A DNA stretch of 64,000 bases from Rosa chinensis. Its lineage: Eukaryota > Streptophyta > Magnoliopsida > Rosales > Rosaceae. The position numbers and the translations under genes were made by a program. The DNA lies in assembly GCF_002994745.2 (NCBI RefSeq), contig NC_037094.1, positions 9,634,501 through 9,698,500 on the forward strand, read 5' to 3'. This document shows positions 6,657 through 64,000 of this stretch, piece by piece (the stretch's first letter is position 1; each line of letters opens with the position of its first letter). Below the pieces are notes generated by a model. The model saw only the letters and a program-made list of their open reading frames with translations. It made no database searches and was not told the DNA's origin.

Positions 6657-9418
<2,762 letters not shown>

Positions 9419-11128: not shown

Positions 11129-11175
<47 letters not shown>

Positions 11176-11251
11176 TTGGATATGAAGGAACTCTATGTAC
11201 GTATGTACGTACATGATACAGTCATATGCCACAATCAATGTAACCACGTAC
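9419..11251. other. Intergenic between the two intact beta-glucosidases
   Basis: The segment 9555-9700, upstream of copy A, is homologous to 14060-14195, upstream of copy B (shared 'aaactaattaacca', 'gcacaaattttggaatg', 'aagctcatgat'), so the duplicated unit includes upstream regulatory DNA. A 94-codon open frame at 10059-10343 (+) lies between the genes; its sequence matches no family I know, and it has no paralogous counterpart, so it is not called as a gene. The remainder is AT-rich. Confidence 0.5.
11135..11172. repeat. (AT)n microsatellite
   Basis: An uninterrupted AT dinucleotide run of about 19 units, 80 bp beyond the stop codon of beta-glucosidase copy B. Confidence 0.95.
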
Positions 11252-13944
<2,693 letters not shown>

Positions 13945-23049: not shown

Positions 23050-23361
23050 AACATTTTTTTTTTAATCAAACCTCCCAAATGCGAGGAAAAAGATTTATTA
23101 CGAATAAAGGGAAATACAAGTAAGAGGGGAGGACATATCCTACACCTTCTAGAAATAAGGTACTATTGATGAGGAATGACAGACAACATCCTACTTTCCA
23201 AAACAAAAGAAATCATCTAAAGTGAAAATTAGAGAGACCCAACTTATCTCTTAAACAAAATTAATTAACGAAGCTTGGAGATGAATCAAACCAAGTAAAG
23301 CCCGTACCTGAAGCACCAAAATTGGCCAATACATCAGCCACCTGGTTTCCTTCAAGAAAAA
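23050..23361 (-). mobile_element. 3' end of a LINE retrotransposon (truncated)
   Basis: Read on the minus strand, the frame from about 23361 to 23265 gives IFLEGNQVADVLANFGASG and then a short tail, matching the C-terminal RNase H region common in plant L1-type LINEs (the EGNQVADALAN motif). It is followed by 3' UTR and an A-tract (T-run at about 23053-23062 on the plus strand). The upstream part is cut off by the solo LTR at 23362. A typical 5'-truncated remnant. Confidence 0.7.
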
Positions 23362-25623
23362 TGACGCGCTCAAAAGCAAGCGCGCAATTTAACCCTGAAA
23401 ATATCGTTAGTAGTATAAGCAAATAGGGATCGTTCTATTCCGGGGATTGAGGGTACACTTGTAATTGTGAAACAAATAAATAAAAGTATTATTTACAAAA
23501 ATAAAATAAAGAATATAAATATATACAATTGTATAAACAAATAAAGAATTAAAATAATAAAGTATTATTTACAAAAATAAAATAAAGAATAAATATATAC
23601 AAGTGAACAAAAATAAGGGGGGGATTAGGATTCTTAAAATTAAAATTAAAATAAATAAAATAAAGAAAACGTAAAAAACATATATACAAGGGTGGAACGC
23701 AAGGAACAAAGATCAAAATCAATTCCATGTAATCAAATTCGATTCAAACCCTATAATTGTTCTTCCAAGTCATGAGAGAGGAGTTGATCATGTGAAACAT
23801 TCGAAAGCAAATGATTTCCCATATTTTACTTTTCAATGCTAATTAACCTAAGCGAAAGCACCTAGATTAATCCTATCAAACATGCAATTAAGCCCTAGAA
23901 AGCTAGTCAATCATGACATGTTCAACGCATTAGACATAGAGAAAGGCTATCAACTCAAGTGTACAACTTAGTTATGGAAAAGTCCACCTAATTGCAATCC
24001 TCTTCAATTAAATTCGATTCTTGTCCAGAACCTTTACTACTTTGATTCAAGTTTACACAAAACGAAAAGTCGATTTCATGTTCTTAAACCTAGCACCAAT
24101 TACATGCAAATCCTATAAGTGTCGACCCAAATAAGATAAACATATAAAAGTTTTCTATCAAGCAAATTCAATCGAACAAACTCACATAAGCAACTTAGAA
24201 TCACAATTATAGAATTTGAAAACTTTATTTAAACATAGAAATTGGGCTTAAACTTTGCCCTAAACATTATTGTTAACTAGAAACAAGTTCATACGAAATC
24301 AAACAAGGAAACCAAAAAGGTTACAAGGAAAAGGAACGAATTACACCGTGAGTGGAGATGGAGATGGAGAGCTAGATCGATGGTTGGATCTTGAATCTTG
24401 GAAGCAAGCCTTCAAGGTGGATGATGGAGGATATGATCTTCACGGCTCCTTCTTCTTCTTCCTCTTCTTGCTTGAAAATGCATAAACTTAAAACTAGAGA
24501 ATGGAGAAGGAAAATGGAAAGGAAATGGAGAGACAAAGAATATGAGATGGATGAAGGAATTGGTGTGGGAAAATGGAAAGGAAATGGAGAGACAAAGAAG
24601 ATGGAATGGATGAAGGAATTGGTGTGTTGGAAATGGTGACTAAGGAAAATGGAGAGGAAATGGTGAGACAAGGAGATGAGATGGATGAAGGAATTGGTCA
24701 CTAAGGAAAATGGAGAGGAAATGGAGAGACAAAGAAGATGAGATGGATGAAGGAATGTGTTTTAGAGTGAGAGGAGAAGGTGTTTATATAGGGAAGAGAA
24801 AGAAGAGTGAAATGATGAGTGGAAGAAAAATAATGAAAGTGGAGTATGAAAGTGATTTGTAAAATATGGAAAAGAAAGAGAAATGATGAAATGAAAGCAA
24901 AGCATGAAGGTGCAGCAACATGGAAGTGATGATGATCTATTAAAGAGATTGTAGAAAAAATATATCCAAGGAAAAAGAGAAAAGCATCTAGCTTTCTTCA
25001 TGTGGGTGGGAAACATGAATATGTGGTGTTGAGCTGTTTTCAGGTCAGTTTCTTCCCCTTTATTCCTTCAATTATTTCTCCAACAAGACTTCATTATATG
25101 CCTTCGACTTCTTCATATGAAATGTTCCACTATGAGTGTAGATCATCCTGACAAATTTTCAGAGCTTCAATCCATGTGGTTGGGCCGGAAATGCTGCTGG
25201 ACCTCTTACAGGTCCAGTTTTCCGGTTTTGCTTCTGTAGAAAATTGGGCTGATTGTTTGAAGGCCTTCCACTCATATTTTTCTCTGGCACTCTTCATAAG
25301 AAATGATCCTTTGGGTGTCTAGAATGGATCTGGAAGGTTTCAGCTCATTTGAAGTTCATTTGGTCAGGCGGCCGCTCCTTCTTCTTTGCTTGGCTTGGTT
25401 TCTCCTAGCCGGAGTAGGAATATGTGTAAAATTGATCTTTTAGTACATTTCCATTTTTCTCCATCATTTCCAGGTAATTATGGACCTAACGCTCATTTCA
25501 GCTTCATTTACTCCAATGTACCTAAAAATAGAAATTGAATTAAAAATCGATTCAGTTAAGGAATTAACTAAGCAAAATGTGAGGAATTAACTATTAAAAT
25601 ATCACATTAAAATGCTCCTATCA
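23362..25623 (-). mobile_element. Solo LTR of a gypsy-type retrotransposon (family 1), copy with variant U3
   Basis: Bounded by TG...CA ends (minus strand: start tgataggagc is the complement of 25614-25623; end is 'gcgcgtca', the complement of 23362-23369) and by the 5-bp duplication AAAAA (23357-23361 and 25624-25628). No internal region is attached, so it is a solo LTR left by recombination. The U5/R half (about 23362-24790) is closely shared with the LTRs at 53819 and 57065, including the 'gatcgttctattccggggattgagggtacac' region, the block of diverged 'ggaaatggagagacaaagaagatg...' repeats (24500-24760) and a TATA-like site near 24785. The U3 half (about 24990-25560) differs from the other two and lacks their 39-bp repeats. 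Confidence 0.85.
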
Positions 25624-36128: not shown

Positions 36129-38204
36129 TTAACGCTTTCCACGACGCGCCCTTTCCACATGCTCCCTTTCCTGACGCTGCCTGAGGGTCATGTACCTGTC
36201 ATGCACAGTAGGCGAAGGCTTGAAAGGTCTGGGTTCGGGATAGTCTTTAAACCAGTCATGGCTAAGAGCATCACCCACTGTTATCCGCTTTGCAGGGTCG
36301 TATGTTAAAAGTTTTGTCAACAAATCCAACCCTGAAGCAGAGAGCATTGGGGATCCTGTGAAACACGTCCCAGAAAATTTCTTGCGCAAAAGGTTCTCCC
36401 GTTGTTTAACCTGAATAGCTTTGAAGCCTGGCAATTTGGATACCCCAGGCCAATCTGTCTCACTTGGTGTACCAAGGGTTCTGAAAATCTTGTCAAGCTG
36501 ATCAACTTCGGTTTTCCCTTGAAATAGTGCTTCCTTGGCCAAAAGTTCAGCCATTATACATCCAACTGACCACATATCAATTGCTGTCGAATACTGCTTT
36601 TGACCTAATAGAAGTTCAGGTGCCCTGTACCACAAAGTGACCACTAGGGAAGTATATGGCTTCAGGGGACTCCCATACTGGCGTGACAAACCAAAGTCGC
36701 ATATTTTCAATTCACCCTCCTTATTTAAAAGAATATTGGAAGTTTTCACATCTCTGTGAAGAACCCAATTATCATGAAGATACTTCACACCCTCCAACAG
36801 ACTTCTCATCAAGTATTTAACTTCGCCTATACTAAATGGCTGTTTTGTCGCCTCCGTTAGAAGCTTGAGCTCATATTCCATACACTCCATAACCATAAAA
36901 ATATCATCACCGTTGTGAACAACTTCCTTCACACCCACAATGGAAGGGTGATTACAAGACAAAAGAATGTTTATTTCTCTCAATGATGTAATAGGGAAAC
37001 CTTCATTGGACTTATCCATCTTCACCTTCTTAATGGCTACAATTTCTCCAGTTTGTTTATCTCTCGCTCTGTAGACAACACCATAAGTGCCTTCACCCAG
37101 CATCCCATCTAGTTTAGTAAACTCGGCCACACTTCTGCATCCCTGAAGCATGTTTGTACTTCTTCCTCTTGGCACCATAGGCTCTTCAATCTGAGGAAGA
37201 CCTTCATCATCCTCTGAGTCAGGATACAGCTGGCCACCACTTGCATTCCCACCAACTCCATCAATCTCTTCTCCAGTGACAGAGTCGCTTTCTTCATGAG
37301 AGCTACAAGTTCTGCTCCTAGGCTCAACTGAGTCTTCTCTTCGGATTTCACCACTTTCTGGAGTTGAGTTACAGCTGCGATCATCCATCGGAGAATCAGT
37401 GTCAGATGCCCATCTTGACAAAGAGATCCTAGTCTGGTCTTTGTCATTCAGGTTACTCTGTGCCTCGGATTTGCATAGTGGAGTATGCACATCGGCGGGA
37501 GGTTCCAAATGAGAAATCTCCACCAGCCCATCAGCCAGAGAAGGTTCAGCTTCAGACACCTCCACTCCCTGAGACTGAATCTCTGAAGCAGGAGACTTTG
37601 AAGCAACCCAATTGGTTTGAGCAGGACGAGGAGATGTAGAAGAAATGACTGGAACAACTTTAACAACTCTGTTCTTTGATGATATCCTCACTTTCTTCTC
37701 TTCTCTGTCAATTGTAACAGGAGACTTACTCTTCTTCTCAGAGAGTAACGGAATCACATTTTCATGCTTGAATTCAGAAACCCCCTCTCCATGAGACTGA
37801 ATATCTGAAGCAGGACCATCAGAGACAACGTCACCAACCTCCAAAGATGATCTCTTCCGAGGAGATGAATGAGCAATGGCCGAGACAGGAACAACCCCAC
37901 TCCTTGTTAATGCCCTCGCTTTCTTCTCTTCTTTATCCCATATAATGGGCGAAAACTTCCTCTTCTTCTCAGGAAGTAACTCAACGACCCCTTCCCGATG
38001 AGGACCCCTTCCATTCTCAACCGACCTCCTTGAATTGCCAACTTCATCCCTATATTTGACACCCCCATCACCGCCATGGCTCAGCTTAACACCAGAGAAC
38101 CCGTTCCTATAATACTCAGAATCTCTTTTGGAGTACTTAGGAGAATCCCTTCTTCTAAAAACGTCAACTCTCCCTGTCGCCATATGATTAAGATTAACAA
38201 CCAC
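36129..38204 (-). CDS. CDKG2: Cyclin-dependent kinase G-type (PITSLRE family), copy 1
   Basis: Single uninterrupted coding exon of 691 residues. The N-terminal half (1-355) is low complexity, rich in Ser, Arg and Glu. The kinase domain spans about 363-653: glycine loop GEGTYG (370-375), Lys392, PITSLRE cyclin-binding helix (404-410), HRDVKTSN with catalytic Asp485, DFG (503-505), activation segment ending [10 protein letters not shown], and a basic tail. PITSLRE places it with plant CDKG and animal CDK11, nuclear kinases of splicing and transcription; in Arabidopsis CDKG proteins act with cyclin L in splicing and meiosis. All catalytic residues are present, so it should be active. The first ATG is taken; an ATG seven codons later is also possible. 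A 5'-UTR intron is likely (donor CCG|gtaag near 38540). It is the tandem partner of the gene at 41157. Confidence 0.93.
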
Positions 38205-38514
38205 AGCTCTTCTTAGTCAAAGATCAAACTCAACAATTACAAAACAAATCAACAAACCCCCCAAAAATATATGCCCAACAGGTTTCAACCCCAATTTCAA
38301 CGCTTCCTGAACCCTAAAAATAAAAAGTTCAATCTTTTTGTTTTTATTTCTTTTCTTCTAGATCAATCAGCAGAGCATACAGATAACACAGAGAAAAAAA
38401 TAAATATCCGAGCAGAAAATCAATTGCAGATCTCGGAACACCAATCGGAAAAGAAATTAAAAATTGCAGCGATTGACAGGCCAAGAAAACCCTAGACCTC
38501 GGAGCCGTGAAAAA

Positions 38515-38560
38515 TTCACAGGTATCGGAAGGTCTTACCGGAATCGAGATCGCCAGTGAG
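38515..38560 (-). other. Probable 5'-UTR exon end and donor of CDKG copy 1
   Basis: On the minus strand 'gatctcgattccg|gtaag' gives a strong donor. The same sequence lies upstream of copy 2 (about 43326-43360). The intron would end shortly before the start codon. Conservation in both copies and the absence of coding sequence support a leader exon. Confidence 0.5.
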
Positions 38561-38924
38561 AAGCGGTAGAGATCGATACGAACGCCTTCAAGGGTTTCGG
38601 CTCTGCTTTCGACCTCAAGAGAGAGAGGAGAGAGGTTATGATGGTTTTAGGGGCTGGGCGGCGGAATATAAAATATCAAATTGGTGTGGCGTCGGTTTGG
38701 AAGTTGCGGGGTGCGTGTTACTTTCTTTCACGCGGTTTGGGCCTGCATCTTGGGCTGTCAAAAGAACAGTATCTCGTCTTCTGAGAGTCTTTTAACATTT
38801 CACTTTCCTACTTGAATGTATGTTTACGTCAAGAGATAATGTTTTAGACTAATCAGTCACATCATAGTTTTCTTACAAAATATATATTAAAAAAATTCAT
38901 GGGTTGTAGCTCATTCTTATGGCA

Positions 38925-39361
38925 TCTCCAACCATTGAGCTATAAATCAAAATGGCTCTGGCTTTTTGGGTGAGTCATCTCCAACCATGCTCAATGTGGA
39001 GCCATTTTGACTCATGAGCCAAAAGCCGTGTCAAAATGACTCAACTTTGTAGAACGAAAGCCATTTCTGTGAGGGGAGAGAAATGGTGGCCCCCAGCTGC
39101 ATGTGCTGCAATTGCAGCTGAAGAAGTTGACGCGCCAGAGGGAGAAGACAGAAGGGACTCGCGGATAAAGACAAAATAACTGCACAACCGTGGTTGACGG
39201 GCGAGACACGCGATGGAGATGCAACCGACACATGGGGCCCGCCTGTGCAGAACTAGCAGAAGTCTTCCAACTGTAAGTAATCGAACAGCCCAGATTCAAC
39301 TTCATTAATTCTATTTAAAATGAAAGGCCCAGATTAATTCTTTCTAAACATAAAAAAGTAA

Positions 39362-39392
<31 letters not shown>

Positions 39393-39633
39393 CTGAATTT
39401 CTAATCTAACGGTGTAAAAAATGTCATGGATTAAAATCAACCGTAGATAATAAAGTAATTGTGTTTTAATTCATATTGTAGTTAAATAGTTGTCTAAAAT
39501 GATTAAATGAGTTTGACTTTTGACTAAAGATGGTTGGAGATGCAAAATAAGAATGAATAGTGATGACTTTAGGGGAGTCAAATTTTGCAAATGACTTTGG
39601 CTTTTAACTCCATTGTTAAAGATGCCCTTACGC
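38925..39633. mobile_element. MITE-like element of about 700 bp
   Basis: The left end 'ttatggcatctccaacca' is imperfectly complementary to the right end 'gttaaagatgcccttac', and the similarity continues inward (ATGGCTCT-GGCTTTT against AAGTCA-AAGCCAAA). 'catctccaacca' and its complement 'tggttggagatg' also recur internally at 38970 and 39530. No coding. An (AT)n run lies inside. The exact termini and target duplication were not resolved. Confidence 0.5.
39366..39392. repeat. (AT)n microsatellite
   Basis: An uninterrupted AT run of about 13 units within the MITE-like element. Confidence 0.95.
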
Positions 39634-40149
39634 ATATGATATGACTTATTTCGTTATTGAGATGACGTGTTGTTGAATTAATATCACATTTAAATTTTGT
39701 AAAACAATGATATTATTAACGAATTTTGACTGGAATATGGCACGTATCCATATTGGGGAGTAGAGATGGTGAGAATTTTTAGTGCAAGGGAGACCTTGAG
39801 TCGAAGCTTGTAAAAAGTTTGGGTGTTCTGTTCCTCTATTTTGTTTAGTATTCAATTATTTTTGTATCACTATACACTTGTTTAAATGACGAGAATTTTA
39901 GTCTACTATAAGGTCGGTCTAGTATGTTCGACACGCATCAAGATTATTTGCAGGAAGAAGGAAGGTGAGAATTTCACCATACAACTAATGAGTAATGACT
40001 AATGGAATGTAAAACTAGATTAACAGTTGGCATTACAAATAAGTAACAAATATGTATGTAGTGAACTAGTGATGAGCTCAAACAATGAATCAGCTCATCT
40101 CGAGAACTTCAGAAGAATGGAAATCTGGAGTTTACAATTGAAGAAGGTG

Positions 40150-41156
40150 GTCAGGTCCTATCTGGTCCAAATCTGCAATGGACTCCCTCTCCACATTGAA
40201 AACTCAAGTATAGCTGCTCTGATTGGCTATGAAGACCCTGTCATGCTCATTTAACTTTGGATTTATCTGTTATCAGATTTCAGTGACATATTGTGAAACA
40301 TGATAGCTCTCATAAAACTGGAGGGAAGAGAAGATTAACCAAATTTGATAACTGATCTAAATATGAATACCTAACAACAAATTTGGATAAAAGCAGAAGC
40401 CCTTGGAATCTTGAACTTCTAAATGAAACCTCACCAGCCAAGCGGTCTAGCTGCAGGCAAGCAAAAACCCTCTTTGATCACCAGAGCAAGGTAATTGTCG
40501 AGTTAGGAATGGCACTGGTTGATAGAAGTTAAAAGTGAGCTTCATATTGGGTGAATTCAAAACCAGTGAAACCCAAACAGAAATTTTTTTGGTGATGCAA
40601 TACATTGGTTACAAGTCCCTAACACTATGCCTCCCATCTAGCAAAGGGCCTAATGGAATTTCTGTTATATTCCTGGCGAAGTGTATGAACCATATGTGAA
40701 ACAGATTGAGAATCATGAAGGACATCAATACATGAACTGACATTTTACATCTATGACCTCATGGTAATGAAATAACTTACAATTGCAATCCTTCCTGTCC
40801 CAAGTCTGAAATGCCAGTTGCATTCTCCTCTTCTTCTCAGGTTTTTCAGGACCCAAATCACTTGCACAAAAAGGCTAACATGAACAAAGCAAACAAACAG
40901 CTCGAAAGTATAAAATAACGGAATGAAAATCCAATATGTACACTGGCTGAGATATGGAAATACAAATTAAATTTTTTTTTCTATTCTTCTCGATCAACAT
41001 TACTATCCGCACCTTTATATACAGAGCAACATAACCTTGCAACTCATTTTCTGTACCTTCTAGAAGACCCTGCACTCTGTTACCTTCACAAATGCCTAGG
41101 CAAAATTTCTACATATCAAAATCCAAAACTAATGCCTTTTCTCCCTTTTACGACGC
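40150..41156. repeat. 3' part of tandem duplication unit 2 (downstream of CDKG copy 2)
   Basis: Diverged counterpart of 34960-36128, in the same order and orientation relative to the kinase gene. It shows that the duplication unit was about 3.3-3.6 kb, from roughly 1 kb beyond the stop codon to the leader exon. Confidence 0.65.
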
Positions 41157-43157
41157 TCACTTTCCTCTCGATCTCTTTCTTTTCTGACGCTCCCTTTCCC
41201 ATTGCTGCTTGAGGATGTAGTTGTCATGAACACTAGGAGAAGGTTTAAAAGGGCTGGGTTCAGGGTAGTCCTTAAACCAGTCATGGCTAAGAGCATCATC
41301 CACTGTTATGCGCTTCTCAGGATCATATGTTAAAAGTTTTGTCAACAGATCCAACCCGGAAGCAGTAAGCATTGGTGATCCTGTGAAACATGTCCCACAA
41401 AATTTCTTGCGCAGATTGTTCTCCCCTTTTTTAATTTTAATAGATTTAAACACTGGCAATTTGGATACTCCAGGCCAATCTGTCTCCTTTGGTGCACCAA
41501 GAGTATCAAAAATCGCATCAAGCTGATGAACTTCGGTTGGCGTTTTCGGACTGAATAGTGGTTCTTTGGCCAAAAGTTCAGCCATTATACATCCAACTGA
41601 CCACATATCAATTGCTGTAGAGTACTGCTTTTGACCTAATAGAAGTTCAGGTGCCCTGTACAACAAAGTGACTACATTGGAAGTATAAGGCTGCAGGGGA
41701 CTCCCATACTGGCGTGACAACCCAAGGTCACATATTTTCAATTCACCCTCCTTGTTCAAAAGCATGTTTGAAGTTTTCAGATCTCTGTGAAGAACCCAAT
41801 TATCATGAAGATACTTTACACCCTCCAACAGCCTTTTCACCAAATATTTAACTTCGCCTATACTAAATCGCTGCTCCATCGATTCCATTAGAAACTTGAG
41901 CTCATAGTCCATATACTCCATAACCATAAGAATATCACCATCCTTGTCCACAACAACTTCCTTCGCACCCACAATGGAAGGGTGATTACATGACAAAAGA
42001 ATGTTTATTTCTCTCAATGATGTAATAGGGAAACCTTCATCGCGGTTATCCATCTTCACCTTCTTCATGGCTACAATTTCCCCAGTTTGTTCATCTCTCG
42101 CTCTGTAGACTACACCATAAGTGCCTTCACCCAGTGCCTCTTGATTACTAGTATAGTACTCCTCACTACTTCTGCAACCCTGAAGCATGTTTGCACTTCT
42201 TCCCCTGGGCACTGCAGGCTCTTCAATCCGAGCAATATTTTCGTCATCTGAATCAGGATACAGCTGATCAACGCCCGCATTGCCAACATGTCCACCAATC
42301 TCTTCTCCACCATCTCCACTGACAGAGCTAGAAGTTCTGCTCCTATCCCCAACTGAGCCTTCTCTTCGGATTTCGCCATTTTCAGGAGTCGAGCTGCAGC
42401 TAACATCATCCCTTGGAGAGTCAATGTCAGATGCCCATCTTGACAATGAGATTCTAGTCTGGTCTTTGTCATCCAGGTTATTTGGAACCTCGGAATGCCG
42501 CCGAACCTGCAAATCAGCAGGGGCTTCCATTTGAGAAATCTCCACCAACCCATCTGCCACAGAAGGTTTATCTTCAGAACCCTCCACTCCATGAGACCGA
42601 GTCTGTGAAGCAGGAGAATTTGAAACAACCCCATCGGAAACAATCACACTAGATGGAGGAGTGACCTGGACAAATCTATTCTTTGATGATATCCTCACTC
42701 TCTTCTCTTCCCTGTCACTTGTAACCGGAGACTTCCTCTTCCTGATCTCAGGAAGCAATTGAACAATGTCGACTCCTTCGGAGACAACATCATGAACCTC
42801 ACAAGATGGTGATCTTGAAACAACTGAGACTGGAACAACTCCATTCTTCGATGATACCCTTACTAATTTCTTCTCTTCTCTGTCCCATATAACAGGAGAA
42901 AACCTCCTCTTCTTCTCCTTCTCCTTCTCCGGAGTTTTTCTGGTCTCAACCAACGATTCTGAGGCATTTGATTGCCCTCTCCATCTTCGCGAATCGCGAA
43001 CTTCATCTCTAAATTTGCCACCATCATTGCAGCCATGGCTCAGCTTAACACCAGAGAACCCATTCTTATAATACCCAAATTCTCTCCTGGAGTATTTAGG
43101 AGAATCCCTTCTTCTCAGAACATCAACCTGCCCTGTCGCCATATTATTAACAACCAC
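41157..43157 (-). CDS. Cyclin-dependent kinase G-type (PITSLRE family), diverged copy 2
   Basis: Single coding exon of 666 residues, colinear with copy 1 over the whole length. Kinase domain at about 336-630: GEGTYG (343-348), PITSLRE (377-383), HRDLKTSN with Asp459. It departs from copy 1 in the activation segment: DFG is DLG (477-479), and TLWYRAPE is TLLYRAPE (W to L). The catalytic Lys (MKKVKM), HRD Asp and DLG Asp are retained, so activity is possible but may be altered. The stretch before the glycine loop ([10 protein letters not shown]) also differs from copy 1. There are no stops or frameshifts over 2 kb, which argues against simple decay. A leader exon and donor like those of copy 1 lie upstream (about 43326-43360). 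The HRD motif is actually closer to the family norm than in copy 1 (HRDLKTSN against HRDVKTSN). Confidence 0.9.
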
Positions 43158-53818: not shown

Positions 53819-55696
53819 TGATAGGAGCATTTTAATGCGACGTTTTAACTGCATTTCCCTACATTTCTTACGTTATTTCCTTATTAAAACCCTGTTTAGG
53901 AAAGTTTCCATTCTTTGATTGGGAAAGTTCCTATTTGTAGAAAGTTTATATTTTTGTAGTTTCTATTTATCATTTTTAGTAAGTTTCCATTTTCAGTTTA
54001 GGAAAGTTGCCATTTTTCATTTTAGGAAAGTTTCTATTTTTCTTATTAGTTTCTATTTTTAGGACCTCCAAGCAAGTGGAAAATCTTGAGGAGGAAAATC
54101 AAAGTTGCAACCAAGTGGAAAATCTTGAGGAGGAAAATCAAAGTTGCAAGCAAGTGGAAAATCTTGAGGAGGAAAATCAAAGTTGCAACCAAGTGGAAAA
54201 TCTTGAGGAGGAAAATCAAAGTTGCAAGCAAGTGGAAAATCTTGAGAAGGAAAATCAAAGTTGCAACCAAGTGGAAAATCTTGAGGATGAAAATCAATTC
54301 AAGTTGAACAAGTGATAAACAAGTGGGAAGATATTTTTTACAAATTTGTCTAACATATCTAGCCTTTCATTTATGTTCATCTCCACCCTCCATTCATCAT
54401 TTTTTGGGCTATAAATACACTTCTCCTCTCACTCTCAAAATATCTTCCTTCATCCATTCCATCTTCTTTGTCTCACCATTTCCTTTCCATTTTCCCAACC
54501 AATTCCTTCATCCATCTCATCTTCTTTGTCTCTCCATTTCCTTTCCATTTTCCTTCTCCATTCTCTAGTTGCAAAGTTCTGCGTTTTCAAGCAAGGAGAG
54601 GAAGAAGAAGAAGGAGTCGTGAAGATCATATCCTCCATCATCCACCTTGAAGGCTTGCTTCCAAGATTCAAGATCCAACCATCTAGCTCTCCATCTCCAT
54701 CTCCCCTCACGGTGTAATTCATTCTTTTTCCTTGTAATGATCTTTTGTTTTCCTTGTTTGAATTCATATGAACTTGTTTCTAGTTAACAATAATGTTTAG
54801 GGCAAAGTTTAAGCCCAATTTCTATGTTTAAATAAAGTTTTCGAATTCTATAATTGTGATTCTAAGTTGCTTATGTGAGTTTGTTCGATTAAATTTGCTT
54901 TACAGAAAACTTTTATATGTTTATCTTATTTGGGTCGACACTTATAGGATTTGCATGTAATTGGTGCTAGGTTTAAGAACATGAAATCGACTTTTCGTTT
55001 TGTGTAACTTGAATCAAAAGTAGTAAAGGTTCTGGACAAGAATCGAATTTAATTGAAGAGCATTGCAATTAGGTGGACTTTTCCATAACTAAGTTGTACA
55101 CTTGAGTTGATAGCCTTTCTCTATGTCTAATGCATTGAACATGTCATGATTGACTAGCTTTCTAGGGCTTGATTGCATGTTTGATAGGATTAATCTAGGT
55201 GCTTTCGCTTAGGTTAATTAGCATTGAAAAGTAAAATATGGGAAATCATTTGCTTTCGAATGTTTCACATGATCAACTCCTCTCTCATGACTTGGAAGAA
55301 CAATTATAGGGTTTGAATCGAATTTGATTACATGGAATTAATTTTCATCTTTGTTCCTTATGTTTCACCCCTGTATATATGTTTTTACATTTTCTTTATT
55401 TTATTTATTTTAATTTTAATTTTAAGAATCCTAATCCCCCCCTTATTTGTGTTTACTTGTATATATTTATTCTTTATTTTATTTTTGTAAATAATACTTT
55501 ATTATTTTAATTCTTTATTTGTTGATACAATTGTATATATTTATATTCTTTATTTTATTTTTGTAAATAATACTTTTCTTTATTTGTTTCACAATTACAA
55601 GTGTACCCTCAATCCCCGGAATAGAACGATCCCTATTTGCTTATACTACTAACGATATTTTCAGGGTTAAATTGCGCGCTTGCTTTGAGCGCGTCA
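53819..55696 (+). mobile_element. Solo LTR of gypsy-type family 1 (1878 bp)
   Basis: Starts tgataggagcattttaatgc and ends gcgcgtca, flanked by the 5-bp duplication TATGT (53814-53818 and 55697-55701) with no internal region, hence a solo LTR. Order within the LTR: U3 with A/T-rich 'ggaaagtttc' repeats, then six 39-bp units (54072-54300), a TATA-like 'ctataaatac' near 54411 with a CT-rich start region, a block of diverged 'catttcctttccattttcc' repeats, and a long U5 with the 'gtgtaccctcaatccccggaatagaacgatcc' region near the end. It is homologous to 57065-58937 (inverted) along its full length, and to 23362-25623 in the R/U5 half. Confidence 0.92.
54072..54300 (+). repeat. 39-bp tandem repeat array (six units) in the LTR U3
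   Basis: 'gtggaaaatcttgag' recurs every 39 bp from 54076. Units alternate between 'gcaagcaag' and 'gcaaccaag' junctions, giving a 78-bp higher-order period. Because 39 is divisible by three, the array is open in several frames on both strands; one reads a 13-residue coiled-coil-like unit (QVENLEEENQSCN). It lies just before the TATA-like site, so a promoter/enhancer role is more plausible than coding. Confidence 0.9.
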
Positions 55697-55701
55697 TATG
55701 T

Positions 55702-57064
55702 CACCGTCATGTCAAAGCAAATGAAATAGCCATTTGTGCACTCTTTGCTAGTTGGTGTTTGTTAGAATACATGTATTTTGTAGATGTTTGGACCCAAAAT
55801 GAGCATTTTAGCCTGACAAGGCACGTTTTGGAGAAATTGAGCCAATGTTAGTGGCTCAAGCTATATATATTGTCGACAATTTCGAAATATATATTCAGAG
55901 GCTAAATAAAGCCTACTATGGAAGCATGGAAACATGAAAAGTCAACTTTAGCACATTTTCCTACTTCGGCTAGGAGAAACCGAGCTAAACAAGGAAGGAG
56001 GAGCGGCAGACTAACCAAATTAAATCGAAATGAGCTAAAACTTTCCAGATCAAATCTAGACATCCCAATGATCATTTCTTATGAAGAGTGCCAGAGATAT
56101 TTTTGAGTGGAAGGCCTTCAAACAATCAGCCCAATATTTTGCAGAAGCAAAACTGGAAAACTGGACCTGTAAGAGGTCCAGCAGCGTTTCCGGCCCAACC
56201 ACTATATGAAAAATTCTGAAATTTTACCAGAGTGATCTACACTCATAATGGAACATTTGTTATGAAGAGGTCACGGTCAAAATATGAATTTTTGATGGAG
56301 ATAAAATTCAAGGAATAAAGGAGCCGAAATTCAACATTCCTTATCTCCTTATCTCCAAAAGTCATCACTCCTTATCTCCTTATCTCCAAAAGTCATCACT
56401 CCTTATCTCCTTATCTCCAAAATTCATCATTTCTGATCTCCAATTAATGCTCCACTATCATTTGTTTAATGCTAAATGCTTTGGCATGGTAGCCTATAAA
56501 TAGAGGTTACAAATTCATCACAAAGACACATTCACAACAACAACATCTCTAAGATGATCTAAGTTCTCTCTAGAGCAACCTCTCTAAGAGCAACTCCTCT
56601 TCTTCTCTTTCTCTTACCGGTGATCACACTCCTAGTCCTAGTCTTCCCAGAAGCCGACTTTCAGTGCCACCAAATCCTCTGTCAACGTACTTTGGTCCTA
56701 GTCTCCTCGGGAGCCGACGATAGTGCTGCGACCACAACGGTTACAGAACCAGCCAAGCAAGGGTAACGCCCTAGCAACCCAGCCAAGCTAAAGTCACGCT
56801 TTAGCAAGTTCTCCTCATTTCCTAGTGGTTCTCGCTCTGCTTGATCTACAACATCGAGTATCGATTGTGATTTTCAAGAAGCTCAGCAAAAGTCCTCGCC
56901 ACGAGGCACAAAGGTGGTGATCCCTGCAGAGGAATCATTGGTTGCTTTCATGGTTAAACGATTCAACGCTGATATCCCAGCAGATGAACCCAAGCTCAAT
57001 CTTGATGATGACATGGACGAAACAGAAATGGTGGATACCTCTTGCAATATGGTTTATGTGCTCC
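55702..57064 (+). mobile_element. Remnant of a second gypsy-type element: LTR and start of gag/pol region
   Basis: Includes a TATA-like 'gcctataaatagagg' near 56492, a CT-rich leader, and then an open frame (about 56885-57064) with VIPAEESLVAFMVKRFNADIP and an acidic stretch ending in NMVYVLL, similar to the linker between gag and protease in plant gypsy polyproteins. The segment 56020-56200 is the inverted counterpart of 25140-25330 in the solo LTR at 23362. Three short 'tccttatctccttatctccaaaa' repeats lie at 56340-56425. It is interrupted at 57065 by the next element. Confidence 0.6.
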
Positions 57065-58937
57065 TGATGCGCTTAAAGCAAGCGCATAATTTAACCCTGA
57101 AATATCGTTAGTAGTATAAGCAAATAGGGATCGTTCTATCCGGGGATTGAGGGTACACTTGTAATTGTGAAACAAATAAAGAAAAGTATTATTTACAAAA
57201 AAAAATAAAGAATAAATATATACAAGTAAACAAAAATAAGGGGGATTTTGTTTTTGGATTTTCGAAAATAAAACTAAGTTAACAAAATAATTAAAATGCA
57301 AAAACATAAAAATAAAATAGAGTGAGAGAACAAAGATCAAAAACCGAAACATATGATTAAAATTGATTCAAACCCTAATATTGTTCATCTAAGTCATGAG
57401 AGAGGAGTTGATCATGTGAAACATTCGAAAGCAAATGATTTCCCATATTTTACTTTTCAATGCTAATTAACCTAAGCGAAAGCACCTAAATTAATCCTAT
57501 CAAACATGCAATCAAGCCCTAGAAAGCTAGTCAATCATGACATGTTTAATGCATTAGACATAGAGAAAGGCTATCAACTCAAGTGTACAACTTAGTTATG
57601 GAAAAGTCCACCTAATTGCAATCCTCTTCAATTAAATTCGATTCTTGTCCAGAACCTTTACTACTTTTGATTCAAGTTACACAAAACGAAAAGTCGATTT
57701 CATGTTCTTAAACCTAGCACCAATTACATGCAAATCCTATAAGTGTCGACCCAAATAAGATAAACATATAAAAGTTTTCTATCAAGCAAATTCAATCGAA
57801 CAATCACACATAAGCAACTTTGGAATCACAACATAAGAATCGAAATTCTTTATTCAATCATAAAATTTCAGAATATAAACCTTGTTCAAACATAAATGTT
57901 AACTAAAAACAATTCTCACGAAACTAAGCAAGATTACAAAGAAAGAGGTTGAATTACACCGTGAGATGGAGATGGGGATGAAGGATGAAACGTTATGGAT
58001 TCTTGAATCTCGAAAGCAAGCTTCAAGGTGGAGGATGGATGATGATGCTCACGGCTCCTTCTTCTTCTTCTTCTCCCTTGCTTGAAACGTTGAATGCACT
58101 AGAGGATGGAGAGAAAATGGAAAGGAAATGGAGAGACAAAGAAGATGGAATGGATGAAGGAATTGGTGTAGAAAAATGGAAAGGAAATGGAGAGACAAAG
58201 AAGATGGAATGGATGAAGGAATTGGTGGGAAAATGAAAACTAAGGAAAATGGAGAGGAAATGGAGAGACAAAGAAGATGAGATGGATGAAGGAATTTGTT
58301 TTTAAGAGTGAGAGGAGAAGTGTATTTATAGCCCAAAAAATGATGAATGGAGGGTGGAGATGAACATAAATGAAGGGCTAGATATGTTAGACAAATTTGT
58401 AAAAAAATATCTTCCCATTTGTTTATCACTTGTTCAACTTGAATTGATTTTCCTCCTCAAGATTTTCCACTTGGTTGCAACTTTGATTTTCCTCCTCAAG
58501 ATTTTCCACTTGCTTGGAACTTTGATTTTCCTCCTCAAGATTTTCCACTTGGTTGCAACTTTGATTCTCCTCCTCAAGATTTTCCACTTGGTTGCAACTT
58601 TGATTCTCCTCCTCAAGATTTTCCACTTGGTTGCAACTTTGATTTTCCTCCTCTAGATTTCCACTTGGTTGCAACTTTGATTTTCCTCCTCAAGATTTTC
58701 CACTTGCTTGGAGGTCCTAAAAATAGAAACTAATAAGAAAAATAGAAACTTTCCTAAAATGAAAAATGGCAACTTACTAAAAATGATAAATAGAAACTAC
58801 AAAAATATAAACTTTCTACAAATAGGAACTTTCCCAATCAAAGAATGGAAACTTTCCTAAACAGGATTTTAATAAGGAAATAACGTAAGAAATGTAGGGA
58901 AATGCAGTTAAAACGTCGCATTAAAATGCTCCTATCA
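57065..58937 (-). mobile_element. 3' LTR of a gypsy-type family 1 retrotransposon (1873 bp)
   Basis: Same LTR as at 53819, inverted: the minus-strand start is tgataggagc at 58937 and the end lies at 57065. A polypurine tract is adjacent to its start and the internal region follows at higher coordinates, so this is the 3' LTR of an element lying on the minus strand. The 5' LTR would lie beyond 64000. It inserted into the gag/pol linker of the element at 55702-57064 (nested insertion). It carries seven 39-bp units and a TATA-like site near 58325. Confidence 0.88.
58440..58715 (-). repeat. 39-bp tandem repeat array (seven units) in the 3' LTR
   Basis: Seven units of the same 39-bp repeat as at 54072. 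The sixth has a one-base loss (ctctagatttcc), which breaks the long reading frame. The variant 'ttggaac' replaces 'ttgcaac' in one unit. Confidence 0.9.
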
Positions 58938-58952
58938 AATTCCCCCACACTT
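58938..58952 (-). promoter_or_regulatory. Polypurine tract of the LTR retrotransposon
   Basis: On the minus strand 'aagtgtgggggaatt' lies immediately before the LTR start TGATAGG. A purine-rich run directly upstream of the 3' LTR is the plus-strand priming site of LTR retroelements. Confidence 0.8.
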
Positions 58953-60825
58953 AGCTTTTGCTAGTCCCTTAGTAAAATCACACTAAGACACACACTAACA
59001 CTCAACGAAAATTAAAGACTCTACAAAAACAATGACTCTATTGCCCTTCAACTTTTTGTCTCAGAAATCTCCTACTTTCACTACATCAAGATTAGCACTC
59101 AACCAAGAATCAATATGTAGATATTCAAGAGTTAATTAAAACATATAATCCACACATACACAAGTAGGACTTGGTTGTAATAATGGTGATGGTTTCTGTT
59201 AAGCATGCTTCGAACAAGTATGATTCATATCCTCACAAGGTATATCCACTCTTTCTTCTCTCAGAATTCAAGACAATGCTTAAAAGCTTATAATCACTCA
59301 ATTATATGTGAGAGAAAATATTTTGAGGCAATCAAATAGCTCACATATATAAGAAACGAAAAGCACTTTGTGAATATAAATTTTTTTTTTTTAAAAGATC
59401 TCATGAAGGATATCAACTACTTGCACGGATGGACCCAAGCCATAGGTTCAACTCTTGTAACTCATCTCCACAAATCAAAGGCTGTCCCATCTTAAGGATC
59501 AAGAAGGTCTTATTTAGGGTTGTAATGGGGCCAAGGCTCAAGGTTTTAAGAAATGAAGGGTAAGGATTTATCAAAGTGTCCTAAAAACCTAGCAGAGCAC
59601 ATGTAGATGTAGAGACCTCAAGAAATCCACCAAGGCATTGCAAAAACGTCACTTTCCCTAGAGGTAACATAAACTTCCCTAGAACTATAGTGGAATGGAC
59701 AAAGGCCAAATTTTTCTGTAGTGGGCCTTCAGTTCAAAGTAAACTCCAAAATCACTAAGTATGGGAGACTAAAATCCATAAACATTTTTCTTTCTTTTCT
59801 TTTCTAGCCGTACACAATTTTTTTCTTTTCATTTCATTTTTCACGGCTTTCACAAATTTTTTTTTTTCATGGACAAGTCTACCCCCACACTTGAACTTTC
59901 ACCTCTTCTCAATCTTCGTTCTCAATGCCAAATCCTCAAGTAAAGTCCCAAAATATAGCTCCACTAAGTTTTTAGAACAAAGGGTAGGAGTGTAGCTATA
60001 CTAAGGTTCAGGGTTAAGGATTTAAGGGTGATGAAAGAAAAGGCTTAATGTAAGCTCAAAGGGGTTTATCTAAGGGAGTCCCATGACGGGCACAAATAGG
60101 GACACATGCTTATTTGGCAATGGTGATAATTCCTAGGTTGCCTCTATCCCTTCCAGAATCAGGGCCATGTATTGACAAAAGTCTCAACAAGCACAAGAGC
60201 GAATTCTAGCATTCTCTAGTCCATCAAACTTAATCTATGGCAAGCAATCAATCAAATGAAAGAATAATGAGATCATCAAAACATCGCCAAGAAATTAAGA
60301 ATATATTTTTCAATTATCACTCCAAGAAAAAGGGACATGGCTCAAATATCTCACATGGGCTTTTATGAATCAAAACTTATCCTAACATGCTCATATTCTG
60401 TACCAAGGTTACGAAATCCATATCCACTACACATGCATGCATTTTTCATATATCTCAATTAACCAAAGAATACCATTTTAAAAATCATCTCAATTTTATG
60501 ATCCTCTTTTAATCATGATTTCAGAGATATAGAATCATCCTAGACAGTTGAAAGGGCATTCTAAGACTCAAAAACAAAAACAAAAGTAACCAAATTTTTT
60601 TTTTTTTTTCAACAATTTAATTTAATTTCAACACTTAGGTACGGGAACAGGGAGTCTCGATGTGCAATGGGACTGAAACAGCTACCCTTTTTCAAGACTA
60701 TGTTTAATCCAATATACCTTAGTGTATCACAACATCAATTAAAAACACAAAAAACACAATCCAACATCAACTATTTTTCATTTTTTTTTATATACTAACT
60801 ACTAAAAACACAATAAAGCAATAAC

Positions 60826-61080
60826 CCTTCCCCCATACTTAATTCATGCATTGTCCTCAATGTATAAACAAATATAAATCATGCAAAGCATAAATCAAGC
60901 ATAGAAGAGAAAATGAACACAACGAAACCTAAAACAACTTAAAATTTAAGAAAATAAAATAGAAGGAAGAGTTCAAGAAAGCAAATCTGCGTTTGATGGC
61001 TCCTCCACAGCTACAGTTGAAATGGGTTGCCTCCCATGCAGCGCTTAATGTTTAAAGTCTTTCAGCCTAGACTTGTACCT
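60826..61080 (-). repeat. Post-pol module of the retroelement, copy 1
   Basis: On the minus strand: 'gcgctgcatgggaggcaaccc' (about 61022-61043) and then, about 190 bp on, 'cattgaggacaatgcatg' followed by 'ttaagtatgggggaag' (about 60826-60861). The same pair occurs at 62997-63235. This combination is familiar from the region after the polymerase ORF in Athila/Tat-type gypsy elements, where one copy is expected. Confidence 0.7.
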
Positions 61081-61084
61081 CCAT

Positions 61085-61615
61085 TTACTCCTTTGGAGGA
61101 GCGGTATGCGGGCGAGTGGCAGCCCTCTTGCTGGTTTCAGCCTTCGGAGGCGGGTCCTCATGTTGTGATGCAGTAGCGTCCTTGCGAGGAAACCCAGGAG
61201 GATAACTCTGCAAGTTATTGACTTCCTGAGCAAGCTTGTTTATTGCAGTGTGACAGCGGATCAAAGAGCAGTTCATCTCAGAGATGTAATCGATCATGCA
61301 ATTGACTCTCCAATCTGTCACCATAATACCATCGCGGAGAGAGGAGCGCAAATCATCAATTGAATCCGACAAGCTTTCCAGGGTGGCCACAGGCCGAGGA
61401 GCACGAGCAGCTGGTGAGGAAGAAGACTCTCCGGGATGCAGTCTGGGAGAGCGACGAGGCAGAGGAGGGGGACTGCGGGTACGCTCACGGATAGGACGAT
61501 GGTCCCATGGACGAGTAAGCCCAGCTCTAGTGGCCGCCTGACGACCTTCTTCCTCCAAAGAGAGAACACGGCGTTGATTGACGCCCCTGCGAGGGGTTAC
61601 CTTGGTTCGAGCCAT
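61085..61615 (-). CDS. Retroelement-associated ORF, unknown function (176 residues)
   Basis: An open frame on the coding strand of the retrotransposon, taken from MARTKVTPRRGVNQRRV (ATG at 61615); an in-frame ATG 13 codons earlier exists but is less convincing. The N-terminal half is Arg/Pro/Ser-rich and basic; the C-terminal part (about 85-150) could form a helix (TLESLSDSIDDLRSSL, INKLAQEVNNLQ). There is no zinc knuckle, protease or integrase motif. It ends close to the 'gggaggcaaccc' motif, the place where an extra 3' ORF of Tat/Athila-type elements would end. Function unknown; it may be a gag-like or accessory protein of the element. Confidence 0.5.
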   Translation of the reverse strand: MARTKVTPRRGVNQRRVLSLEEEGRQAATRAGLTRPWDHRPIRERTRSPPPLPRRSPRLHPGESSSSPAARAPRPVATLESLSDSIDDLRSSLRDGIMVTDWRVNCMIDYISEMNCSLIRCHTAINKLAQEVNNLQSYPPGFPRKDATASQHEDPPPKAETSKRAATRPHTAPPKE

Positions 61616-61814
61616 GAGGAAGTAGAAGGAATTTGAAACTGCACGCTTAAACAAACCTTAGTAAAATCTGGAGGAGACAAAAAAGGATGTATATGTAAAG
61701 CACAAAATAGGGTAGAAATCTCAACAGGCACACGGTTTTAACAAAGCTTCTCCGGGAAGGAGAAGAGTTATGACAGTTCACGGCCCAAGAAACTCCTCCA
61801 CGTGTAAATATTCC

Positions 61815-62003
61815 TTTCTTTTCCTGGATTTATGGCATTTAGATCTGCTTTCAGCTGTAGCTTGTCTGTCACAGGTCCTCGAGATTCGTTTGATTCCCCC
61901 ACGCGTCCTTTCTTTTCCTTAATTTACGGCAATCATACCTGCTTTCGGCTGTAGCTTATCTGTCACAGCTCCTCGAGATCAGTTTGGTTCCCCCATGTGT
62001 CCT
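61815..62003. repeat. Tandem duplication of about 94 bp upstream of the homeobox ORF
   Basis: Two consecutive copies (about 61815-61908 and 61909-62003). Shared blocks: 'tttcttttcc', 'ctgctttc.gctgtagctt.tctgtcacag.tcctcgaga' and 'gattcccccacgcgtcc'/'ggttcccccatgtgtcc'. Non-coding. It sits 220 bp before the ATG of the WUS-like frame and could act as, or derive from, a promoter or LTR-like sequence. Confidence 0.8.
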
Positions 62004-62225
62004 TCACGCGTCAACAACTTTTCCGTGTTTTTGGGTGACTTTAATCCAACGCGTAGATTTAATCTCAGAGATCGTCGATCCAACGGTGGAGATCTGCTCA
62101 CTCGTTCTAGAAATAGGTGCATTCTGAGCGACTGTTCACTCCAAAAGAAAATTCTTCCGAGTTCCAGCCTTTCTCTCTCAACCCTTCAGCCTTTCTTTCG
62201 AAACTCAAATCCTTTCTTCATCAAC

Positions 62226-62825
62226 ATGGAACCACGAACTCTGCAACTAATGGAGCAACAGACCCAGCAACAAATCGAGGATGGAGGAAACAACCAAGCT
62301 GCCGGGACTAATAACCGGTGGGCTCCCACACCGCCTCAACTAAGAATCCTCAAGGGCCTTTACTATGATAAGGGTTTTAAGTACCCAACTCCAGAGCAGA
62401 TTCAAGAGATCTGCCTTCATCTGAAACAGTATGGGCAGATCGAGGACAAAAACGTCTTCTTTTGGTTCCAGAACCTCAAGGCTCGTGAGAGGCAGAAGTT
62501 GAAGGAATTTCGGAACGTTCCGGTTGGTGGATCTCTCGATCTCAATTTTGGTTCCACTGGTTCTACTAGTAATGATAGATCCACTGACAGATCCATTGAT
62601 CTAAACTTTGGGTCACGTGTCGGCTATGGTGCTGATGGATCGATCATGGAACAACGAGGAGAATATCACCAGGAGATTGAAACCCTTCCACTATTCCCCA
62701 TGCATGGTGAGGACATCTTTGGCAACATGAAGACTACTTCCGAGGGAGGTAGCGGTTATGGCGGTGGCTCTCACATTTCCCTTGAGCTCAGTCTCAACTC
62801 CTACAGAGATGCAGACATGGCTTAG
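62226..62825 (+). CDS. WUS: WUSCHEL-like homeobox protein, intronless, inside an LTR retrotransposon
   Basis: An open frame of 199 codons starting [11 protein letters not shown]; the frame is also open upstream, but that part looks like leader. Homeodomain of the WUS/WOX type at about 31-95 ([18 protein letters not shown], then KNVFFWFQN). A WUS box TLPLFPMH (153-160) is followed by GEDI, and an EAR-like tail LELSLNSY (186-193) is present: the WUS-clade order. WUS proteins are nuclear regulators that maintain stem cells in shoot meristems. Oddities: no introns, where WUS genes normally have two; shorter than typical WUS (about 250-300 residues) through loss between homeodomain and WUS box; the recognition-helix WFQNHKAR is WFQNLKAR (L84); and two DLNFGS repeats (105-110, 125-130) that add EAR-like DLN motifs. 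It lies antisense to the surrounding retroelement. It looks like a captured retrocopy kept free of stops; whether it is expressed is unknown. Confidence 0.85.
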
Positions 62826-62839
62826 TATAGTGTATAAAG

Positions 62840-62924
62840 TTTTTTTTTTTTTTTTTTTTTTTTTTGTAAATAGCTGAATTTAATAAGACAGAATGAATGC
62901 AGTTTTTTTTTTTTTTTTTTTTTA
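62840..62924. repeat. Two long T-runs after the homeobox ORF
   Basis: T28 at 62840-62867 and T22 at 62903-62924, separated by 35 bp. On the retroelement's own strand these are A-runs. A retrocopy in the plus direction would be expected to end in A, not T, so they do not represent its poly(A) tail. Confidence 0.9.
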
Positions 62925-62996
62925 ATATAAATGACTCAAAAATAAAAGACAAATATATATATATAGGACTCAAAATGAAAGACAAAAATATAAATC

Positions 62997-63235
62997 TCTT
63001 CCCCCACACTTAAATATTGCATTATCCTCAATGTAATCAATTAAAAGCATGCAATGTAATAAGTAAGCATAGATAGAAGACATTTACGAAAACAAATCCT
63101 AAAATAAAAACAATAGAGAAAAAATGAAAAATAAAAAGAAATAGGGAAAGAGAAAGCAAATCTGATTATATTCTGAATTGGGTTGCCTCCCAAGTAGCGC
63201 TTGTATTTTACGTCTTGCAGCCAGACGGTACCTAC
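62997..63235 (-). repeat. Post-pol module of the retroelement, copy 2
   Basis: On the minus strand: 'agcgctacttgggaggcaaccc' (about 63177-63202), then 'cattgaggataatgcaatatttaagtgtgggggaag' spread over about 62998-63033. It is the counterpart of 60826-61080. Together the two copies bracket the WUS-like frame, its leader repeat and the minus-strand ORF. Confidence 0.7.
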
Positions 63236-64000
63236 ATTAAATAAAGTTAGTAACTATAATTAACAAAGAAATACAAAAATAAAAACAAGTATAACTATTA
63301 ATTACAAACTACAAGTATAATTAACAAGTATATTATACACAAGACACAAGTTAAGTACTCAAGTGAGTATAAAACGTGAAAAGTATTTTTACAAGTATAA
63401 TGTGTGAAACAAAATAATTTACATGTATAGAGTATTCACAAGTATTTCTTTTATTATAAACATTATTGATATCGAATCAAATTCCAAGCGGTAAATCAAG
63501 TGGACGTGCGGCCCAAGTATAGTCGCCTAGACACAAACTCCCTTTCAAATCGTTTGGGCAACCTTACTGAAATGGCCAGGTGGGGGAGGACGAACACGAG
63601 AGGAAAAATCCATTTTGGCATGAGCTACTCCCACATAGTGGTTTAGGCCCATTTGCAAGCACTTCTGGATTCAAAAACCCGTCATGATAGTTGTCCCCTT
63701 CCTAGACACCATTTCACATAGGCTTTCTTACTAAGATGAGAAAGTTCATAAGTGTGAAGACAGTTCAACAAGTGTTAATAAAGGCCGCCCTCAACCTTAA
63801 GAGACCTGAGCTAGGTACCAATAAGGGGTTTAGGCCAATATTAACAAAAGAGACTTCACCTATTCCTCTCAATTTACAACCTACAATTAAAATTCGTGTT
63901 CAATAATATAAATAACATCCTAGTTAATTTAAAATAAGTTTCAAACAATTTTTAAACAACAAATATATACAATAAATGATACAATTTAGCAAGTGATTTT

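Follow-up and report, generated by a model that had tools for sequence, protein, structure and literature searches.

The window, which is the 64,000-nucleotide stretch of DNA analysed here (C7:9634501-9698500 in the 515-Mb Rosa chinensis assembly), carries a shortened derivative of WUSCHEL (WUS) within a recently spread non-autonomous LTR element. This derivative includes the N-terminus, the homeodomain, the WUS box and the EAR tail, together with new DLNFGS repeats. In addition, a processed rose WUS copy lies antisense in a Tat-type Ty3/gypsy context, downstream of pol. The best explanation overall, which can be held with good confidence, is that a processed WUS was captured and spread by a non-autonomous element and that the encoded factor is used. 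The separate parts of this explanation differ in strength. The origin from a spliced WUS copy and the mobility of the WUS-carrying element are highly probable. Judged from the sequences, there is about an even chance that the WUS-like protein is used, and a role for it in the meristem is possible but rather unlikely.

The WUS-carrying element (57065-65902, minus strand, 8.8 kb) is a complete LTR element. It exhibits paired LTRs with TG...CA ends, a 5-bp target site duplication (TSD), a primer binding site (PBS) after the 5' LTR and a polypurine tract (PPT) before the 3' LTR (Table 1). The LTR pair is 99.73% identical over 1862 aligned columns, with 2 mismatches and 3 gaps. The original prediction had placed the 3' LTR and polypurine tract at 57065-58952, and both the LTR pair and the PPT bear this out. 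The outermost ~13 bases at the U5 end of both LTRs (57065-57077; 64028-64041 in continued coordinates) fall outside the alignment, possibly reflecting a switch during copying. The PBS and PPT positions assign the element to the minus strand; its WUS frame, which is read on the plus strand, is thus antisense. The ORF lists, which cover intact frames, contain no gag-pol frame between the LTRs, and the element is therefore non-autonomous. Its sense ORF has six database homologues, two of them named R. chinensis; it gives no Pfam match above the cut-off and these homologues indicate no family. The primer site TGGCGCCGTTGCCGGGGA, which we take to be tRNA-Asp-like, points to a position near the Ogre/Tat/Athila group and is the sole pointer, the polyprotein being absent. 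The antisense location in an LTR element thus agrees with what had been predicted, but the label "gypsy-type" rests on the primer site and the context because the element has no gag-pol frame. Elsewhere in the window, 54004-55697 and 23361-24618 are related to the same LTR family, in opposite and same orientation, respectively, relative to the LTR at 57065. Repeat families with a spacing of ~4.5-5 kb, possibly tandem gene duplicates, occupy 2700-13900 and 36190-43150.

Table 1 Features of the WUS-carrying element, its WUS-like frame and the surrounding outer element (window positions; those beyond 64000 continue the same numbering)
Feature	Position	Strand	Basis or remark
Left LTR of outer Tat-type element	55784..56913	+	Paired with right LTR 77254-78383 (continued coordinates)
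Target site duplication GCTCC	57060..57064; second copy 65903-65907 (continued coordinates, C7)	.	Exact 5-bp match at TG...CA ends
3' LTR of WUS-carrying element	57065..58937	-	Paired with 5' LTR
Polypurine tract adjoining 3' LTR	about 58938..58952	-	AGTGTGGGGGAATT on minus strand
Internal region, window part (continues to 64027)	58953..64000	-	ORF lists
Sense ORF, 176 aa, start MARTKV	61085..61615	-	Intact in 18/20 other copies
WUS-like ORF, 199 aa	62226..62825	+	Antisense to WUS-carrying element; ORF list, Pfam, PDB and protein searches, copy comparison
Homeodomain, residues 28-93	62307..62504	+	Pfam PF00046 E 7e-11; PDB 6ry3; predicted model vs WUS-HD 6ryd
Two S[LI]DLNFGS repeats, residues 103-130	62532..62615	+	Alignment with native rose, Fragaria and Argentina WUS
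WUS box TLPLFPMH, residues 153-160	62682..62705	+	T153, L154, L156, P158 invariant in 43 aligned proteins
EAR-type tail LELSLN, residues 186-191	62781..62798	+	L186, E187, L188, L190 invariant in 43 aligned proteins
Primer binding site	64005-64022	-	TGGCGCCGTTGCCGGGGA read on minus strand
5' LTR of WUS-carrying element	64028-65902 (continued coordinates, outside window)	-	Paired with 3' LTR

This element is itself nested inside an outer Tat-type element, whose LTR pair is 99.65% identical over 1130 bases. The outer element encodes a protease, a reverse transcriptase (RT), two RNase H regions and an integrase, followed by an antisense 176-aa WUS-like frame and an antisense plant mobile domain frame. 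Its pol and this second WUS-like frame are located outside the window. RT_RNaseH and then RVT_3 are found together with RT and integrase in a single 1108-aa frame, and the additional RNase H (aRH) is given as the mark of Tat elements in passages of PMC6317226. Both the nesting and the non-autonomy, revealed by the LTR pairs and the ORF lists, had escaped the earlier picture of one gypsy-type element.

The uninterrupted 199-codon frame with homeodomain, TLPLFPMH and LELSLN, from which the original prediction started, is confirmed by the ORF list, Pfam and a PDB match. Upstream of 62226 the reading frame stays open back to an ATG at 61995. The best solved relative of the protein is WUSCHEL (6ry3, E 5e-22). 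Its predicted model is confident in the homeodomain only (77-87 in blocks over residues 31-90, with a whole-chain mean of 57), where the top structural matches are WUS homeodomain-DNA complexes (6ryd). The protein combines a WOX-type homeodomain, a WUS box and a C-terminal EAR-type motif, as do members of the WUSCHEL/modern WOX clade. Homeodomain residues that are invariant across the 43 aligned proteins include K75, N76, W80, F81 and N83. Opposite the two S[LI]DLNFGS repeats, native rose WUS has one related stretch, SISHNFGS; the repeats resemble DLN-type EAR motifs. The motifs that have been kept suggest that the 199-aa protein is a predicted nuclear regulator.

The native rose WUS gene (C2:11.71 Mb) has three exons, separated by introns of 86 bp and 335 bp, and encodes 299 aa. 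A full-length relative at C2:65.6 Mb (L051), 80% identical to Fragaria WUS and carrying three in-frame stops, has neither intron: exons 1-2 and 2-3 are joined exactly at the splice sites, and the capture thus came from an mRNA. The flanks of L051 match the surroundings of the antisense WUS in the outer element. The claim that the copy is mRNA-derived is therefore supported, although one step of the reasoning behind it, from the lack of introns in the window frame, fails for this copy. Both native introns sit in the middle region that this frame has lost, so that their absence is uninformative alone, and the window frame was rejected as evidence of intron loss by itself. The possibility that the locus is the single or syntenic WUS gene of the species was likewise rejected, given the intron-bearing gene at C2. 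In the 5' leader of native WUS (L058:2130-2467, C2:11.71 Mb), a ~338-base insert lies between 16-base direct repeats ACCTCTCTGTCAACTT. A 5' UTR intron was considered and rejected: the insert is flanked by the direct repeat and shows no splice signals. The same leader site is uninterrupted in an element-borne copy (L052), and the insert therefore probably post-dates the capture.

A genome search with 61700-62900 as query gave 727 first-look candidates, 40 of which were scored. All 40 match the query at 91-100%; the shortest match spans query positions 113-1201 of 1.2 kb, and one extra fragment row adjoins it. The presence of the WUS frame in the element is thus not due to chance, since every scored copy matches most or all of the query. 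Stop-saturated copies were looked for, and all 40 scored frames (window and 39 others) proved intact. They measure 195, 196 or 199 aa, each with homeodomain, WUS box and EAR motif, and their net length differences are multiples of three throughout. Twenty of the 39 other loci were taken as 10-kb stretches with flanks and the remaining 19 as frames alone. The order LTR, PPT, sense ORF, WUS, PBS, LTR is kept in 18 of the 20 flanked copies. The two rearranged copies (L012 and L013) are 99.9% identical to each other. LTR pairs occur in all 20, with identities of 99.2-100% in 18 and 95.4-95.5% in L012 and L013; the end of the 10-kb stretch truncates 8 of the 20 pairs, and in some others only part of the LTR is aligned. 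Among the 12 copies with uncut ends, 7 have TSDs (2 of these offset by 16 bases from the aligned LTR end) and none was found in the other 5. Two pairs, L012/L013 and L014/L015, are segmental duplicates, and the flanked copies therefore represent at most 18 independent insertions. A multicopy family spread by the element, which the original prediction had raised conditionally, is in good agreement with at least 40 matching copies, their LTR pairs and TSDs, and the layout common to 18 of 20. C2 holds 26 of the 40 scored copies although it represents ~17% of the assembly. The gene count reported in passages of PMC11405225 is similarly biased, with 226 of 381 RcWOX genes on chromosome 2.

The phylogenetic tree includes 32 proteins; its outgroups are WUS-type only, and the two-row outgroup is split rather than lying on one side of a branch. 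The 23 rose-type proteins comprise the window frame, the outer-element frame and 21 database proteins (20 Rosa and P0020). They group with native rose WUS, their sister (support 100/97), in a single clade among WUS proteins, while the Fragaria and Argentina WUS sequences branch outside the rose clade (97/92). In the protein search, among the best 120 of 292 hits, the 23 top R. chinensis clusters (P0001-P0024 without P0020) total 265 member sequences, and more R. chinensis clusters lie below them. The named non-Rosa matches listed among these 120 come from other plants and are by name WUS-like or homeobox proteins, and many WUS-like proteins of this kind from R. rugosa are found among the protein matches listed. 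According to passages of PMC8213826 (Table 3 of that paper), one of the transposon-like groups is a WUS orthogroup to which R. rugosa contributes 46 genes and R. chinensis 14; the split between these species is dated there to ~5.26 million years ago. Of the 381 RcWOX genes in passages of PMC11405225 (2024), 364 belong to rose-only clades I-V, including 265 in clade V, and the clade V motifs quoted there match the 199-aa window protein. The strings "transpos" and "retro" are absent from the main text of PMC11405225.

The copies are not uniform along their length. The core (60640-64000) is 92-97% identical to the window element in the 20 flanked copies. The 3' region is 67-70% identical in 16 of them (27-79% of the region aligned) and 93-95% in 4, and their LTRs are 78-92% identical to those of the window element (58-91% aligned). 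Because the copies were picked by their similarity over 61700-62900, this comparison favours the core; its parts beyond that interval are nevertheless similar too. We infer that the same WUS core came under different LTRs and 3' regions via template switching. Two R. rugosa proteins (P0025 and P0030) have a window-like N-terminus with another homeodomain type; from these two proteins, element lineages may exchange homeodomain modules.

Selection on the frame was estimated from the 34 distinct frames and from pairwise comparisons. Their pN/pS is 0.45 overall, 0.087 in the homeodomain and 0.52-0.61 elsewhere; reading the whole ORF in its two shifted frames gives 0.91 and 0.73. Homeodomain codon variants include 7 nonsynonymous (N), all private, and 7 synonymous (S), 3 of them shared. 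With an assumed ts/tv weight, a binomial test for a deficit of N gives p 0.0004 for the whole frame and p 0.07, not significant, for the homeodomain. The comparison of native and window WUS yields dN 0.17, dS 0.92 and a ratio of 0.19 in the homeodomain, with dN 0.045 and dS 0.17 in the C-terminal part; that of native WUS and the outer-element frame yields ratios of 0.43 (homeodomain) and 0.59 (whole), and all these native-pair ratios also count the constrained native branch. Between the outer-element and window frames the homeodomain ratio is 0.41. Silent sites differ between homeodomain and C-terminal part in the window frame (p 0.003, synonymous sites back-computed), whereas this contrast is absent in the outer frame (p 0.78). 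The window frame could be read as a mosaic with a homeodomain from an older lineage; the tree instead shows an origin in the rose lineage. The original prediction had proposed "constraint or youth" for the lack of stops. Youth is well supported by the near-identical LTR pairs, and constraint in part only: the low homeodomain pN/pS and the ratio of 0.19 speak for it, but these counts are low and do not all point the same way. In the frame as a whole, the variants that are shared (18 N to 14 S) do not differ clearly from those that are private (30 N to 19 S). Taken together, the selection signals, modest and mixed, favour a protein that would be used.

The most serious alternative is that the WUS frame is a neutral passenger, its intact copies explained by a recent burst and its low dN/dS by few mutations and by constraint on the native gene. 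We consider this a real contender, somewhat short of an even chance. The near-identical LTR pairs imply little time for the frame to decay, the pN/pS beyond the homeodomain and the similar N to S proportions of shared and private variants fit a passenger, and 6 of the 7 best full-length relatives besides native WUS carry stops, among the matches listed from the Fragaria WUS genome search (132 of 830 candidates scored, 247 matches, part of them listed). Moreover, RcWOX clades I to IV are almost unexpressed during rooting, according to passages of PMC11405225. A passenger would, however, hardly be expected to show frame length changes that are all multiples of three (n=40) when the neighbouring sense ORF is cut short in 2 of 20 copies. 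Nor does it readily account for a window homeodomain that has a dS of 0.92 yet a ratio of 0.19 and no stop, or for the invariance of key residues of three motifs in 43 proteins.

Two other explanations involve the host. Passages of PMC11405225 propose genome duplication for the RcWOX expansion, so that ordinary genes would have multiplied in whole-genome or segmental duplications. The two segmental pairs among the 20 flanked copies are of this kind, but the examined copies are bounded by LTRs, PBS and PPT, several have 5-bp TSDs, the full-length relative L051 is spliced and the rose-type copies group in a single clade next to the native gene. For the examined copies, whole-genome duplication is consequently rejected, and duplication as a general explanation is very improbable. 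Alternatively, some element-borne copies may have been co-opted as working host WOX genes, host selection keeping the frame. Passages of PMC12423424 describe reduced levels of 32 genes of the WOX family, located on chromosomes 2 and 7, in virus-infected rose; C2 and C7 also hold many of the element copies, so some copies may be transcribed. Selection on single host genes would nevertheless hardly keep 40 of 40 frames intact in mostly recent insertions, and we regard co-option as improbable.

Under the preferred explanation, a captured WUS spread by its element and used, the gag-pol proteins of a related Tat/Athila-type element would copy the WUS element in trans, and template switching between element RNAs would join the WUS core to different LTRs and 3' regions. 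The antisense transcript would encode a WUS-like transcription factor, which selection would maintain for its benefit to the element. The simplest benefit would be that the factor acts in meristem cells giving rise to the germ line. A bolder proposal, tentative and on balance unlikely, is that the WUS-like protein may be an accessory protein that mimics the stem-cell regulator and shifts meristem cells to favour copying or inheritance of the element, with homeodomain modules swapped among lineages. In that case the element would parasitise stem-cell identity. Self-regulation via canonical WUS sites was rejected: TGAATGAA, TTAATGG, TTAATSS, TAAT and TGAA are not enriched in the three element regions. 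The exception is a hint for G-boxes, with 2 vs 0.24 expected in the internal region (p 0.02) and 1 vs 0.06 upstream of the frame (p 0.055), uncorrected for 18 tests.

A captured spliced WUSCHEL, spread with an intact coding sequence, would explain the apparent hundreds of WUSCHEL-like genes of roses. Provided that the examined copies are representative, the published rose WOX family, with 364 of 381 genes in rose-only clades (passages of PMC11405225), consists mostly of mobile-element cargo and not of ordinary genes, which bears on gene-family and expression studies in rose. The presence of a stem-cell master regulator in many copies of a parasite is moreover a natural case in which the gain of an element from host developmental regulators is directly testable. 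Should the copies be expressed, a bearing on rose regeneration, flower form and bud sports is conceivable, though speculative.

The window protein resembles WUSCHEL (native rose WUS and Arabidopsis WUS, 6ry3) in its homeodomain, WUS box and tail, and native rose WUS is its sister group. Unlike WUSCHEL, it is without most of the native middle region, carries DLNFGS repeats and resides in a mobile element. LOG is a meristem gene. Steinbauerova et al. 2011 reportedly found a LOGL4-like gene in Athila-like elements and histone H3 in chromoviruses, with only two LOGL4-bearing elements. Like these cases, the rose elements are plant Ty3/gypsy elements that captured a host gene; unlike them, they number hundreds of candidate copies.

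The outer-element frame is antisense and lies between pol and the 3' LTR, as do the antisense extra ORFs of Ogre/Tat/Retand elements described in passages of PMC6317226 and PMC11963269. As in that group, the outer element also has an antisense plant mobile domain (Transposase_28) frame. In rose, by contrast, the extra frame can be recognised as a developmental regulator of the host. The 2-ODD (RNA demethylase) frame of an orchid Ty3/Gypsy element is, in passages of PMC9289625, another host-type domain that was gained and kept through several replication rounds; unlike the rose cargo, it is an enzyme and sits in a giant element with gag-pol. The strings "homeo" and "WUS" are absent from the main texts of PMC11963269, PMC7264820, PMC9289625 and PMC6317226. 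The titles and abstract openings of the literature matches listed, a scope that does not extend to the 2018 description of the rose genome (Raymond et al.), contain no report of WUS capture by a retrotransposon. Antisense extra frames and gene capture are already known in plant gypsy elements, and what would be new is a stem-cell regulator as an amplified and possibly selected cargo.
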